Source of the DNA: Bacilli bacterium
GTDB lineage: Bacteria; Bacillota_I; Bacilli_A; RF39; UBA660
Assembly (NCBI GenBank): GCA_017416535.1
Contig: JAFQCG010000001.1
Span: forward strand, 513,013-577,012
Direction: 5' to 3'
DNA: 64,000 nt
Every line of letters begins with the position of its first letter. The stretch's first letter is position 1. The translations under genes and the position numbers were made by a program. Under the pieces are notes generated by a model, which worked only from the letters and a program-made list of their open reading frames with translations, was not told the origin of the DNA and did no database searches. Below, piece by piece: positions 14,575 to 29,103 of the stretch.

Positions 14575-14830
14575 TATAATTAGCGCATCAGTGATGACTA
14601 GGAAGAGTAATCAAAGATTTTATTTTAGAGAGTTATTGGTTGGTGGAAAATAACATAAAATTTAGATGAAAGACACCTACGAGCTACTTGCTTGAACTAA
14701 TAGTAGAGTGAGTCGGAAAAAGAACCGTTATTCTTCGAGTGATTATAAGTAAATATACTTTATAATAAATTGGGTGGTACCGCGGATATTAAACAGTTAT
14801 TCGTCCCTTTGTGGATAATAAACTGTTTTT
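14575..14830 (+). promoter_or_regulatory. T-box riboswitch leader, likely tRNA-Asp-responsive
   Basis: The leader starts after an extended -10 (TGTTATAAT, 14571-14579). It contains AGTA on the 5' side of the specifier loop, an AG-rich stem I and the T-box TGGGTGGTACCGCG at 14771-14784. A terminator follows (AAACAGTT...AACTGTTTTTTT, ~14790-14828) that an antiterminator can replace. On the 3' side of the specifier loop, GAAA-GAC-A (GAC at 14672-14674) matches the GAAA-specifier-A layout of known leaders, giving an Asp codon. The downstream gene is an AspRS, which agrees. Confidence 0.88.
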
Positions 14831-21543: not shown

Positions 21544-22224
21544 ATGACAGAAGAAGAAAAAGAATTAAAGAAGAAAGAAGCATTAAAAGATTATAATGAA
21601 GCTAAAAATAGTTTAAGAAAAAGTAATAATAAAATAATTAAAAGATTTTTAATAGTTGCTTCAATTATTTTTACAGTTTGTTTATTAGTTAGAATATTTT
21701 ATGGAAGAGTTTATTTTTCTGTTTCTTTTTTAAGATTAAATAAAAGTGTAGAGTATAAGATGTTTGTAAATGATAAACATAAAACAGTAGCATTTGAGGA
21801 TACTGAAGATTCTCCTATTATTCCTGGATTATTATATTTTAGAAGAGAAAATAGTGATGCTTGGTTTAATATGAATGAGTTAAATGAAGATTTAATTTTT
21901 GAAGATGAGAAAATTAAGTTGGATTTTGTTGTTAGTGAATGCTATACATATACTGATAAAATTAGAGTTAATTGTGATTCTTCTAATGATAAGTTGATTC
22001 ATAAGAAAGTTAAACCTAAATTTAAAAAAATGTTTATTCGTAAAAATGGTGGAAAAAACAAAGTTATGTATGATGGGAAATATATTAGTGATATAAGTCA
22101 GTATGTTAAAGAAAAGGGGTATTACTATATTGAGATTAGTGCTGAATATGATGGTATTGATACTAAGTTATATTTATTCCCTAGAAGAAAGGAAAGTTTA
22201 GATGAAAACGATAATTTACAATGA
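21544..22224 (+). CDS. Single-TM membrane protein of unknown function
   Basis: 226 aa from ATG 21544, preferred over ATG 21532 because GAGGG lies just before it. It has a charged, lysine-rich cytoplasmic N-terminus, one TM helix (~35-57) and an extracellular beta-rich region. No family is recognised. The TGA stop lies inside the NUDIX gene, whose ATG is 23 nt upstream, giving overlap and coupling. Confidence 0.6.
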   Translation: MTEEEKELKKKEALKDYNEAKNSLRKSNNKIIKRFLIVASIIFTVCLLVRIFYGRVYFSVSFLRLNKSVEYKMFVNDKHKTVAFEDTEDSPIIPGLLYFRRENSDAWFNMNELNEDLIFEDEKIKLDFVVSECYTYTDKIRVNCDSSNDKLIHKKVKPKFKKMFIRKNGGKNKVMYDGKYISDISQYVKEKGYYYIEISAEYDGIDTKLYLFPRRKESLDENDNLQ

Positions 22225-22711
22225 TGATTATTTAGATAAAAAAGATATTAATAAAGTTGTAGGTAGAGCAAAAACTATAATTATTAATTCAAAAGATGAG
22301 TTGCTGCTGGCAAGTACAAATAATAATTATTATTTAGTAGGTGGCCATGTTGAAGGTAATGAAAGTGATGCGGTTTGCTTACATAGAGAGATATTAGAAG
22401 AAACTGGTATTGATTTAGATATTAAAGATATTAGACCATACTTTGTTGTTGAATATTTATGTAAGGATTATCCTAATGTTGGTGATAATACTAACTATAT
22501 TGCAAATTATTATGTTATTGAAACAGATGAAGTACCTAATTTAGAAAATGTTGAACTTACTGAAGGTGAAAAAGAAGGTGGTTTTTCATTAGATTATATT
22601 CATAAAGATAAAGTTATGGATGTATTGGAAGAATCATTAAAAACATGTACTAAGAAAAATGTTGTGAGAGATACAATTGATGCAGTAAGTGAATATTTAA
22701 GACAAAACTAA
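22202..22711 (+). CDS. NUDIX hydrolase
   Basis: 169 aa with a complete NUDIX box: GGHVEGNESDAVCLHREI continuing LEETGI (GX5EX7REUXEEXGU). It hydrolyses nucleoside-diphosphate derivatives; the specific substrate cannot be told. It is the third gene of the GNAT - membrane protein - NUDIX operon, ended by a terminator at 22721-22755. It is one of three NUDIX genes in the window. Confidence 0.9.
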   Translation: MKTIIYNDDYLDKKDINKVVGRAKTIIINSKDELLLASTNNNYYLVGGHVEGNESDAVCLHREILEETGIDLDIKDIRPYFVVEYLCKDYPNVGDNTNYIANYYVIETDEVPNLENVELTEGEKEGGFSLDYIHKDKVMDVLEESLKTCTKKNVVRDTIDAVSEYLRQN

Positions 22712-22720
22712 AAAATAAAA

Positions 22721-22755
22721 AGCAAGTTCAAAGAAGTGTGAATTTGCTTTTTTTG
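22721..22755 (+). terminator. Intrinsic terminator after the NUDIX gene
   Basis: Stem GCAAGTTCA / TGAATTTGC (one G-T pair) followed by seven T. It insulates the downstream toxin-like locus. Confidence 0.8.
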
Positions 22756-22759
22756 TCGT

Positions 22760-22788
22760 TTGCATAATATTTTTAGTTATGTTAGATT
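22760..22788 (+). promoter_or_regulatory. Promoter of the small hydrophobic peptide gene
   Basis: -35 TTGCAT (22760-22765), 17-bp spacer ending in TGT, -10 TAGATT (22783-22788). Transcription would start near 22795, just before the left arm of the flanking inverted repeat. Confidence 0.6.
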
Positions 22789-22796
22789 AGCTAACT

Positions 22797-23015
22797 GGAA
22801 TGTTCAGTTAAAAAGTGTCTACCTTCTGACTATAAAGGAAAGGAGGTTTGAGTGTTGAAGAAAAGAATATTTGTTATAAATGTTTTGAAGTATATTTCAC
22901 TCATTTTATTTCTAGTACTCCTTATTCTAATTGAAATAAAAAAATGACACTTAATTCATACTTGAATTAAATGTCTCACCCAAAAAGGTAGACATTCAGA
23001 TAACTGAATGTTCCC
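22797..23015. repeat. Imperfect inverted repeat flanking the small peptide gene
   Basis: The left arm (22797-22825) reads GGAATGTTCAGTTA...TGTCTACCTT. The right arm (22985-23015) is its near reverse complement, AAGGTAGACA...TAACTGAATGTTCC, about 29-31 nt each with a few mismatches. In the plus-strand mRNA the 5' UTR could pair with the 3' UTR, as in mRNAs of several type I toxins. Confidence 0.8.
22855..22947 (+). CDS. Small hydrophobic peptide, candidate type I toxin
   Basis: 30 aa from TTG 22855 (8 nt after a perfect AAAGGAGG SD at 22839-22846) or 31 aa from GTG 22852. It has a basic N-terminus MKKR, a hydrophobic helix of ~20 residues (positions 5-27, Leu/Ile/Val-rich) and a Lys-Lys end, the layout of membrane-active type I toxins such as TxpA or Fst. 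It is too small for routine gene calling. The two final Lys codons (AAAAAA) double as the U-tract of the opposing antisense RNA terminator. No sequence family is recognised; the toxin call rests on layout. Confidence 0.65.
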   Translation: MKKRIFVINVLKYISLILFLVLLILIEIKK

Positions 23016-23017
23016 TT
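22938..23017 (-). ncRNA. Candidate antisense (antitoxin) RNA
   Basis: A minus-strand unit of ~80 nt. It has a consensus promoter, an internal hairpin (ACATTCAG / CTGAATGT, ~22991-23012) and an intrinsic terminator (stem GACATTTAATTC / GAATTAAGTGTC, 22946-22975, then seven U). It is convergent with the small peptide gene and complementary to the last codons and the 3' UTR of that mRNA, as RatA is to txpA in Bacillus. No protein is encoded. Confidence 0.75.
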
Positions 23018-23023
23018 GATTTA

Positions 23024-23052
23024 ATTATAGCAAAGATGAAATATTGTGTCAA
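23024..23052 (-). promoter_or_regulatory. Perfect consensus sigma-A promoter of the antisense RNA
   Basis: On the minus strand TTGACA (23052-23047), exactly 17 bp, TATAAT (23029-23024). It is the only promoter I found in the window matching consensus at both hexamers with the ideal spacer, as expected for an abundant unstable antitoxin RNA. Confidence 0.85.
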
Positions 23053-23129
23053 AAGTATATTTTTGTTCTTTTAAATATAAATTTTATATGTTATACTTTT
23101 CTAGCGAATATAATTAGATGGTGAGCATA

Positions 23130-24029
23130 ATGAAATTAGATAGAGAAGAAAAGAAATTCAAAGATATTAAGTTAGCAAGTATATTTGGGATTGTTGGAAA
23201 TATATTCTTACTTATTATTAAAGCAATTGTTGGTTTTATTACTAATAGTCAAGCAATGATTGCGGATAGTGTTAATAGTGCAGGAGATATATTATCTTCA
23301 GTTATGACTTATGTAGGGAATAGAATTGCATCTAAGCCTGGAGATGATGATCATAATTTAGGACATGGTAAGGCAGAATATATTTATTCAATGCTTATTA
23401 GTATTGCGATGATTACTACTGCATTAATTATTTTAAAAGATTCTGTTTTTGTTATTATTAATAGTCAAAAATATACTTTTTCTATATGGTTAGTTATTGT
23501 ATGTTTAATAACTATTATTACTAAATTTTGTTTATTTTTATATACTTATGGTCTTTCTAAAAAGTATAATAATTTACTTATTAAAGCAAATTCAAAAGAC
23601 CATATGTGTGACTGTTTTGTGACAGGTGCCAATCTTATTTCTTGTTTATTAACTTTAGTTGGAATTTATATTTTTGATGGTATTGTAGGAATTGGTATAA
23701 GTTTATGGATGCTTATTACATATGTAAAAATATTTATTGAAAGTTATCATGTGTTAATGGATAAGGCAATGGATGAGAAAACTAAAGAGTTGGTTTATGA
23801 AATTGTTAAAGAACATAAGGAAATAATAAAGACTAATCATTTTAATTCAACTCCAGTAGGATACAAATATCAAATTTCTTTAACAATATTTGTAGATGGT
23901 AATCTTTCTACTTTTGAAAGTCATGATATTGCGAATAGATTAGAAAAAGAAATTATTAAAAGAATAGATAGTATTTATTTAGCTGTTATTCATGTTAATC
24001 CTGTGGATGTTAAAAAGACTAAAAAATAG
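23130..24029 (+). CDS. Cation diffusion facilitator (CDF) family transporter
   Basis: 299 aa from ATG 23130 (SD GGTGAGC; the upstream ATG 23118 lacks one). It has six predicted TM helices. The metal site residues are in SQAMIADSVNSAGD and NSKDHMCDCF, and DDDHNLGHGKAEY follows the second helix. A cytoplasmic C-terminal domain ends in HVNP. The family exports Zn, Fe, Mn or Cd by proton antiport; which metal cannot be decided. Its terminator lies over the stop codon. Confidence 0.9.
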   Translation: MKLDREEKKFKDIKLASIFGIVGNIFLLIIKAIVGFITNSQAMIADSVNSAGDILSSVMTYVGNRIASKPGDDDHNLGHGKAEYIYSMLISIAMITTALIILKDSVFVIINSQKYTFSIWLVIVCLITIITKFCLFLYTYGLSKKYNNLLIKANSKDHMCDCFVTGANLISCLLTLVGIYIFDGIVGIGISLWMLITYVKIFIESYHVLMDKAMDEKTKELVYEIVKEHKEIIKTNHFNSTPVGYKYQISLTIFVDGNLSTFESHDIANRLEKEIIKRIDSIYLAVIHVNPVDVKKTKK

Positions 24030-27149: not shown

Positions 27150-27275
27150 AAGATCAGAAAGGTTGTAGATCCAACTGAGCGCCAGGACTCCTAGAGTTGA
27201 CGAGGTTAGTGGTTTTCGAAAGATTCGGCGGGTGCCACTGCGGATAAAGTGATTCGTTAGATATATTGCAAAAAG
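27150..27275 (+). ncRNA. glmS ribozyme-riboswitch
   Basis: It contains the hallmark core: AGCGCCAGGACTCC (27178 onward), AGTTGACGAGG, TTTTCGAAAGATTCGGCGGG and TGCCACTGCGG. Glucosamine-6-phosphate makes this RNA cut itself just upstream of AGCGCC, which destabilises the glmS mRNA. The glmS start codon is 65 nt downstream of my boundary. The exact ends are estimated. Confidence 0.93.
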
Positions 27276-27339
27276 TAAAATCAAAATTACAACAAAGAGT
27301 ATATCATCACACATTTTTTTGTTATGGAGGAAAATAAAT

Positions 27340-29103
27340 ATGTGTGGAATTGTTGGATATAAAGGAAAACAACAACCAAAAGATTTTTTATTAGAGGGGT
27401 TAAAAAATTTAGAGTATAGGGGTTATGATTCATCAGGAATTGCGTTAAAGAATGATGATGAAATTCAAATTATTAGAAGTGTCGGGAAAATTTCTTCTTT
27501 AGAAGAAAAAGTAAATAATGAAAATTTAATTAATTGTAGTATGGGAATTGCTCATACTAGGTGGGCTACTCATGGTATTCCGAGTGAGGAGAATGCTCAT
27601 CCACATAGAGTTGGAAATGTAACTTTAGTTCATAATGGTATTATTGAAAATGCTAGTGAATTAAAAGAAGAATTATTAAAGGATAATGTGATTTTTAATA
27701 GTGAAACTGATACAGAAGTAGCATGTGCAATTATAAATAAGTATTATGAAGGCAATGCAGTTGAAGCGATTAATAAAGCTATAAAAGTTTTAAAAGGTTC
27801 TTATGCATTTTGTATATTCTTTGAAGATAGTGATAAGTTATATGCAGTTAGAAAGGATTCTCCACTTATTATTGGTTATGGTGAAGAAGAAGTTTATGTT
27901 GCATCTGATATAGCTGCAATTATTAGTTATACAAATAAATATAGTTTAATTGAAGAAAATGAGATTGTTGAAATTGGAGATAGAGTTACAGTTACTTTAG
28001 ATGGTAATGTTGTTAATAAGGAAGTTTTGACCGCAACAATATCTGCTGACTCTAAAGATAAATGTGGTTATGAACATTATATGTTGAAAGAAATAATGGA
28101 AGAACCACTTGTTTTAGAAAAAACTTTAAAACCTTATATTGATAATTTGGATAAGTTACCTGATTTAACAGAATATGAAGAAATTCATATTGTTGCGTGT
28201 GGTTCGGCTATGTATGCAGGTATGATTGGTAAAACTTTAATTGAAGAAAATACTAATTTAAGAGTAACTGTTGAAGTTGCGAGTGAATATCGTTATAAGA
28301 AAGTTATTTATGATAGAAAAACTCTTGTAATATTAATTAGTCAGTCAGGTGAGACAGCTGATACTATTGCAGCAATGAGAAAGGCAAAGATGGCAGGTAT
28401 AGAAACACTTGCTATTGTAAATGTTGTTGGTTCAACTATTGCTAGAGAAAGTGGAAGTCAATTATTTATTGAAGCTGGTCCAGAGATTGCTGTTGCTACT
28501 ACAAAAGCATATATGTTACAAGTAGCAATGCTTTCGCTTCTTGCATATAAAGCTGCTTTAAGTAGTGGTTTAGTTAATGATTCTGTAATGAATGAGATAA
28601 AAATAGTACCTAGAATGGTTAGAGAAATATTAGATAGAAGAGATGACTATTTAGAAATAGCAAAGTCTATTTATGATAGAGATGATATATTCTTTATAGG
28701 TAGAAAGATAGATTATGCAGTATCTATGGAAGGAAGTTTAAAGTTAAAAGAAGTTTCATATATTCATAGTGAAGCATATCAAGCAGGAGAGTTAAAGCAT
28801 GGTACTATTTCATTAGTAGATGATGGTACTCCAGTCATTTCAATTATTACTGATAAGGATATAAAGGAGAAAACTATTAGTAATGTTCAAGAAGTTAAAG
28901 CAAGAGGTGCGAAATGTATCATCATTAGTAATGAAGAAATTACTGGATATGACCATTTAATTCAAGTCCCTGAAATGAGTGATTTTTTCCAACCATTAGT
29001 AGTAGTTCCTTGTCTACAACTAATTGCATATGAGGTTGCAAAACTTAGAGGTTGTGATATAGATAAACCTAAAAATCTTGCGAAAAGTGTAACTGTTGAA
29101 TAG
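27340..29103 (+). CDS. glmS: Glucosamine-fructose-6-phosphate aminotransferase (isomerizing)
   Basis: 587 aa from ATG 27340 (SD GGAGG), which leaves Cys2 as the N-terminal nucleophile after Met removal (MCGIVGYKG). The glutaminase domain includes THTRWATHG-like AHTRWATHG and HNGIIENA. Two SIS sugar-isomerase domains follow (~280-580), with SQSGETADT and the C-terminal PKNLAKSVTVE. It makes glucosamine-6-phosphate from fructose-6-phosphate and glutamine for peptidoglycan precursors. Feedback is through the upstream ribozyme. Confidence 0.97.
   Translation: MCGIVGYKGKQQPKDFLLEGLKNLEYRGYDSSGIALKNDDEIQIIRSVGKISSLEEKVNNENLINCSMGIAHTRWATHGIPSEENAHPHRVGNVTLVHNGIIENASELKEELLKDNVIFNSETDTEVACAIINKYYEGNAVEAINKAIKVLKGSYAFCIFFEDSDKLYAVRKDSPLIIGYGEEEVYVASDIAAIISYTNKYSLIEENEIVEIGDRVTVTLDGNVVNKEVLTATISADSKDKCGYEHYMLKEIMEEPLVLEKTLKPYIDNLDKLPDLTEYEEIHIVACGSAMYAGMIGKTLIEENTNLRVTVEVASEYRYKKVIYDRKTLVILISQSGETADTIAAMRKAKMAGIETLAIVNVVGSTIARESGSQLFIEAGPEIAVATTKAYMLQVAMLSLLAYKAALSSGLVNDSVMNEIKIVPRMVREILDRRDDYLEIAKSIYDRDDIFFIGRKIDYAVSMEGSLKLKEVSYIHSEAYQAGELKHGTISLVDDGTPVISIITDKDIKEKTISNVQEVKARGAKCIIISNEEITGYDHLIQVPEMSDFFQPLVVVPCLQLIAYEVAKLRGCDIDKPKNLAKSVTVE

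Follow-up and report, generated by a model that had tools for sequence, protein, structure and literature searches.

Small hydrophobic peptides held in check by antisense RNAs are known from several described type I toxin-antitoxin systems. BsrG/SR4, carried by the SPbeta prophage of Bacillus subtilis, joins a small hydrophobic peptide to a convergent antisense RNA overlapping its 3′ end, and binding of that end by the antisense RNA makes the leader mask the Shine-Dalgarno (SD) sequence more tightly (PMC6562991). TxpA/RatA of the B. subtilis skin element likewise consists of convergent genes with a ~75-nt overlap at their 3′ ends. The toxin TxpA is 59 aa long (PMC4147584). AapA/IsoA of Helicobacter pylori and hok/Sok combine long-distance 5′-3′ pairing of the toxin mRNA with local SD-masking hairpins and occur in several copies per genome (PMC6733600). 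In TisB/IstR-1 of E. coli, a ~30-aa hydrophobic peptide is expressed from a LexA-controlled promoter. IstR-1, whose gene is divergent, has its target in the 5′ UTR (PMC4147584).

Here we analysed a locus within a 64,000-nucleotide stretch of DNA (the window) and read it, with a probability of roughly 0.78, as a chromosomal type I toxin-antitoxin-like unit. As judged from sequence, it carries two general features of a type I system, namely a conserved, coding ORF for a hydrophobic peptide and a complementary antisense RNA with its own promoter and terminator. Together with coevolving mRNA ends, the conserved coding peptide and the antisense RNA gene support the type I-like layout put forward in a preliminary description of the window, and the peptide gene is very probably held in check by the small RNA of the opposite strand. 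Counting against this reading are the weak mRNA terminator of the window copy, the modest gain in SD masking predicted on antisense binding and the decay of some copies elsewhere.

Peptide gene, antisense RNA gene and their flanks

Upstream of the locus lies a Nudix-like gene (22202-22711) and downstream a cation-efflux-like gene (23118-24029), whose ORF starts at 23118 or at the in-frame ATG immediately behind it, and the insulation claimed for it was borne out by a terminator-like hairpin behind the upstream gene (22717-22752) and by the start of the downstream ORF. Two congeners carry chromosomal, syntenic copies with 84-88% nucleotide identity: in G002 the same genes flank the locus, and in G001, whose contig stops just upstream, the downstream genes match. 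Elsewhere in the window, Rfam models matched a T-box leader (14585-14811, plus strand) and a glmS ribozyme (27167-27315, plus strand), the latter directly 5′ of an ORF (27319-29103) resembling glucosamine-6-phosphate synthase.

The toxin promoter, TTGCAT-17-TAGATT with an extended −10 TGTTAGATT (22760-22788, plus strand), has invariant hexamers and spacing in three congeneric loci. It precedes the ORF of the putative toxin, here called family A (22852/22855-22947, plus strand; translation MLKKRIFVINVLKYISLILFLVLLILIEIKK), which runs from TTG 22855 to the stop TGA at 22945-22947 over 30 codons. GTG 22852 is a possible earlier start that would add one residue, and because most relatives have an ATG aligned exactly at TTG 22855, we take the latter as the start of a 30-aa peptide, LKKRIFVINVLKYISLILFLVLLILIEIKK. 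A perfect SD, AAAGGAGGT (22839-22847, plus strand), was read directly and is kept in relatives, in agreement with the preliminary description of a 30-aa hydrophobic peptide behind a perfect SD.

The peptide has a single hydrophobic segment and basic ends. Conservation of the peptide, which that description had set out as a check, was found at two levels: a profile built from 23 peptides matched 191 of 386 genomes searched in the source's bacterial family (99 of 150 genera), and dN/dS across the family was 0.32, indicating purifying selection, versus 0.74 and 0.92 in the other reading frames of the same DNA, as computed on codons 2-26 with the terminator-overlapping part left out. Pfam, NCBIfam and PHROGs held no relevant match to the peptides of these loci, and the PDB held no relative of them. 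We infer that its target is the membrane and that its overproduction would be toxic.

Convergent to this ORF lies the gene of the putative antitoxin, an antisense RNA of ~72-80 nt running from ~23017 to ~22940 (22937-23017, minus strand) and made up of a 5′ hairpin that copies the mRNA leader, a linker and a terminator hairpin. Its promoter, TTGACA-17-TATAAT (23024-23052, minus strand), matches the sigma-70 consensus at 12 of 12 positions, with TTGACA at 23052-23047 and TATAAT at 23029-23024, and is the only exact match in the 64 kb. With one mismatch allowed, 5 matches occur versus 2.6 expected, so the consensus match alone is weak evidence. The two congeners keep both hexamers and the 17-nt spacing unchanged, and the spacers agree at just 4-5 of 17 positions, as counted by eye on the alignment, a pattern pointing to the footprint of a working promoter.

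Transcription would end at an intrinsic terminator (22946-22975, minus strand), a hairpin of 13 pairs followed by ATTTTTTTAT, which overlaps the toxin stop codon and whose U-tract is templated by the last codons of the ORF, ATA AAA AAA (Ile-Lys-Lys); four terminator-like sites were found versus 0.2 expected. The predicted RNA folds into two main hairpins at −26.7 kcal/mol (z −5.9) and is fully complementary to the 3′ UTR and stop codon of the toxin mRNA. Its alignment is conserved and its stems covary, the terminator stem among them, where U.G pairs of the minus strand correspond to C.A mismatches on the opposite strand, a sign of selection on the minus-strand RNA. At the level of sequence, the gene of the convergent ~80-nt RNA, its standing as owner of the best promoter in the window and its terminator on the last codons of the peptide all held up, as did the proposed covariation, from which a covariance model was built and matched elsewhere. 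No relevant antitoxin RNA was found in Rfam, even at E 10.

In most relatives, an additional antisense promoter of the form TTGNCA-17-TGTTATTAT lies farther out, downstream of the 3′ arm of the mRNA, and an extra conserved, covarying hairpin (CAAG-GAAA-CTTG or a variant of it), accompanied by an A-rich linker, would sit at the antisense 5′ end; the window's genus is without this hairpin. We considered CATAAAAT beside the arm as the antisense −10 of these relatives and rejected it, since the conserved promoter farther out fits better. The antisense RNA of most relatives would accordingly be longer and carry an additional hairpin at its 5′ end.

Pairing of the mRNA ends and accessibility of the SD

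The peptide gene is flanked by a ~30-bp inverted repeat, whose copies form the two ends of the predicted toxin mRNA. The leader arm, GGAATGTTCAGTTAAAAAGTGTCTACCTT (22797-22825, plus strand), is defined by the repeat, the fold and covariation, and through its ACCTT end it can mask the SD as well. The 3′ arm, AAGGTAGACATTCAG..AACTGAATGTTCCC (22985-23015, plus strand), forms a hairpin that is the likely mRNA terminator, with a T-run that is clear in relatives and weak in the window copy. Since the two copies run in opposite orientation in the DNA, the mRNA ends can pair and the 5′ half of the antisense RNA is nearly identical to the leader, so that the antisense RNA and the leader would compete for the same 3′ end. 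The mRNA is predicted to fold end to end at −61.7 kcal/mol (z −5.9).

This orientation bears on whether the locus belongs to the Fst/par family of pAD1 RNAI-RNAII, in which direct repeats pair in trans over the toxin start region. The convergent genes, the short hydrophobic peptide and the repeats close to the 5′ ends of both RNAs are shared with that family, but repeats that are inverted rather than direct give the two RNAs the same sequence instead of complementary ones. Neither an Fst profile nor an RNA family matched, and the terminator here overlaps the coding region, unlike the shared terminator of par, which lies outside it (PMC4147584). Membership of Fst/par is refuted by the repeat orientation, and we give it next to no weight.

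Compensatory change in the repeat arms, together with end-to-end folding, had been proposed as a check, and was found in abundance. Across 72 loci, native leader/3′-arm duplexes averaged −35.1 kcal/mol versus −32.2 kcal/mol with the 3′ arms swapped (z −10.5; 0 of 5000 permutations as low). In an alignment of 94 loci, 92.7% of the combinations at 26 end-to-end pairs were canonical, 13 of the 26 pairs showed double changes, and double-change cells numbered 62 versus 9.6 ± 3.3 when whole arms were swapped (0 of 500), whereas sliding the arms against each other lowered the canonical share to 37-55%. One position is a G.U wobble in 89 of the 94 mRNAs, at which the antisense RNA makes A-U, suggesting that the antisense RNA should out-pair the leader on the 3′ end. 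In most units, the leader finds a perfect complement in the stop-codon strand of the terminator hairpin as well, and this complementarity alters in step between peptide groups. The four strands concerned (leader, stop region, hairpin 3′ strand and 3′ arm) therefore allow two alternative pairings, which may act as a folding switch.

A local hairpin between anti-SD and SD was predicted in the leaders of 61 distinct segments (mean z −2.3), and predicted SD accessibility was low in every modelled state, so that any gain from antisense binding would be modest. Opening the SD-start region cost on average 11.9 kcal/mol with the mRNA ends closed versus 14.4 kcal/mol with the 3′ UTR held by the antisense RNA, a difference that partly follows from the constraints set on the states; of 74 loci, 63 were harder to open when antisense-held, and the corresponding values for the window copy were 12.2 kcal/mol antisense-held versus 10.7 kcal/mol with ends closed. 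A simple switch in which end closure frees the SD was rejected, given that accessibility was low in every state and only the opening energies differed. The higher opening energy instead favours antisense binding that exposes the mRNA to RNase III and frees the leader to mask the SD.

We propose that the toxin mRNA is poorly translated because its leader can sequester the SD in the local hairpin and can also pair with the 3′ end. An antisense RNA made in quantity, with a 5′ half that repeats the leader and pairs better than it does, would capture the 3′ end of the mRNA; the displaced leader would then mask the SD, and the antisense/mRNA duplex would expose the mRNA to RNase III. Toxin would be made when the mRNA outruns the antisense RNA, as LexA derepression might allow in some relatives. 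For the inhibition step alone, SD masking with duplex decay, reminiscent of BsrG/SR4, falls a little short of even odds; decay only, in the manner of TxpA/RatA, is a possible though doubtful form of it, and activation by 3′ trimming, as in hok/AapA, an unlikely one.

As an account of the locus as a whole, a hok/AapA-like scheme would have the full-length mRNA closed and inert, 3′ trimming permitting translation and the antisense RNA removing the trimmed or nascent form, with the leader, stop-codon region and 3′ arm serving as successive metastable and final partners. The end-to-end covariation of the mRNA arms is in keeping with it, as is the additional fit of the leader to the stop-codon strand, which shifts in step between groups and resembles the sequential structures of aapA3 (PMC6733600). 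Yet equilibrium folding of a trimmed mRNA in silico leaves the SD masked after loss of the 3′ arm, and because the antisense RNA covers the 3′ end that trimming would remove, it would bind the trimmed mRNA less well. We consider this joint scheme rather unlikely.

Distribution, promoter control and a shared RNA chassis

Genomes of the family carry up to 10 family A copies, some in tandem, and the antisense RNA and the two repeat arms recur at the loci examined. The one genome outside the family that matched in a class-wide draw comes from a different family of that class and holds a single family A unit near a contig end (L216, on G628:C32), which may reflect transfer or mis-binning; in a phylum-wide draw, all three matching genomes fall within the family. 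Scanning named genomes with a DNA pattern returned 115 stretches; those listed came mostly from MAGs named uncultured Bacilli, Tenericutes, Erysipelotrichaceae or Firmicutes and included Candidatus Onthousia and Candidatus Ventrenecus. No plasmid or phage matched the consensus peptide by tblastn, in which a low-complexity filter may blunt a 30-aa hydrophobic query, and no viral contig matched the DNA pattern.

A small membrane peptide under antisense control with a non-toxic role, for example in stress or signalling, would suit copies that are chromosomal, syntenic in congeners and off mobile elements. Multiple and tandem copies, patchiness, decayed copies and a strong antisense promoter are typical of toxin-antitoxin loci, and all occur here, the module being present in about half of the genomes and truncated or frameshifted in some copies elsewhere, which makes the non-toxic reading improbable. 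In the AT-rich window (24-30% GC), where one-mismatch promoter matches are common, ORF, promoter and repeats might also have arisen fortuitously. At the family level, however, this is refuted by the comparative evidence of codon-level purifying selection, arm covariation, conserved hexamers around a free spacer and hundreds of homologous units, and its residual likelihood is negligible.

Control of the toxin promoter differs between units. LexA (PF01726) was present in all 23 family genomes examined, and a matrix made from the family's own lexA promoters (box type CAAACATTTGTTTG; threshold score ≥10) detected a box in 14 of 75 toxin promoters versus 0.5% of control stretches. Thirteen of the 14 boxes lie at −28/−27, between the −35 and −10, suggesting that those units should be SOS-induced. 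A LexA-type palindrome is visible in the toxin promoters of L005, L010, L021, L032, L034 and L039 and likewise of L043, L051, L058, L066, L097 and L111. LexA control of the window copy was rejected, its best site scoring −5.3. In many relatives (L033, L056, L061, L127 and others), an element TGTTCG(C/A)TTG, not LexA-like as a whole, overlaps the toxin −35; its strict form turned up a single time in 37 genomes, at a toxin locus (L273, about 1317-1328).

The covariance model of the antisense RNA (R1) matched 66 of 117 family genomes and picked out three further units in the window's own genome, at C4:429025 and C4:429314 in tandem and at 626421. Many of these matches carry other peptides, namely family B (consensus MKKKDLLISFLILIIILLIVSxMILxIKK, plus shorter kin) and a longer family C. 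Family B occurs in 61 of 145 genomes, and the window's genome has four copies, including a third tandem member at C4:429532. Outside the window, G000:C4:428946-429618 (L251, L304) holds an array of three family B units, the first two encoding identical peptides, which suggests recent duplication; G036:C1:88200-89600 (L253) holds two adjacent family C units with 35-37-aa peptides on the same RNA chassis. Each unit examined has matched arms of its own, as in a family B leader GUUGAGUGCUUGCC with its 3′ arm GGCAAGUACUCAAC; family B arms covary independently (swap z −6.7), and cross-family arm pairs reach ~−20 kcal/mol versus −34 to −37 kcal/mol for native ones. With the pairing code rewritten together with the peptide group, units of different groups should not cross-talk.

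These comparisons place the window locus as one unit of a modular superfamily rather than a one-off, and identify what we regard as an undescribed module family that is widespread in a single large group of uncultured gut bacteria. A fuller reading, which we hold at even odds, is that of an undescribed type I superfamily in which a reusable RNA chassis carries dissimilar small membrane peptides, the pairing code is rewritten in step and some units are wired to the SOS response; the leader and its look-alike in the stop hairpin, the 3′ strand, would pair alternatively with the stop region and the 3′ arm, and the antisense RNA would be a better-pairing copy of the mRNA's own leader. Our searches found no paper describing the module, subscription papers being mostly outside their reach, and none naming type I systems together with RF39. 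If correct, type I toxin-antitoxin systems would reach into a large uncultured lineage of gut Bacilli, and the module would add at least two peptide families named by no searched protein library and an antitoxin RNA absent from Rfam. The shared chassis with its rewritten pairing codes would offer a natural experiment on the evolution of antisense specificity and on toxin exchange, an antisense RNA mimicking the leader of its target would provide a clear, testable regulatory logic, and the LexA boxes in part of the family would tie the module to DNA damage.

Comparison with described type I systems

The module appears to work like the 3′-overlapping type I systems and belongs by sequence to no named family. 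TisB/IstR-1 resembles it in the size and hydrophobicity of the peptide and, for the subset of relatives with LexA boxes, in the control of the toxin promoter, a box that the window copy lacks; the divergent, 5′ UTR-acting IstR-1 differs from the convergent antisense RNA of the window, which lies on the 3′ UTR. AapA/IsoA and hok/Sok share the long-distance mRNA pairing, the local SD-masking hairpins and the multiple copies, but their peptides are unrelated, and the window antisense RNA covers the 3′ UTR rather than the start region.

For both TxpA/RatA and BsrG/SR4, no toxin match was found in Pfam, NCBIfam or PHROGs and no antitoxin match in Rfam. The txpA/ratA-like layout of the preliminary description therefore stands in part: the convergent overlap at the 3′ ends is present, whereas a family match is missing and the wiring differs, with 30 aa instead of 59 aa, an overlap that takes in the stop codon, and pairing that draws in the 5′ end through an antisense RNA copying the leader. 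BsrG/SR4 likewise shows no sequence similarity to the window locus; it is phage-borne, and the window locus is chromosomal and syntenic, with a pairing of leader and 3′ end in which the antisense RNA copies the leader. In both, a convergent antisense RNA overlaps the 3′ end of the mRNA of a small hydrophobic peptide, and the leader, as described for BsrG (PMC6562991) and proposed here, would be able to mask the SD more tightly once that end is bound.
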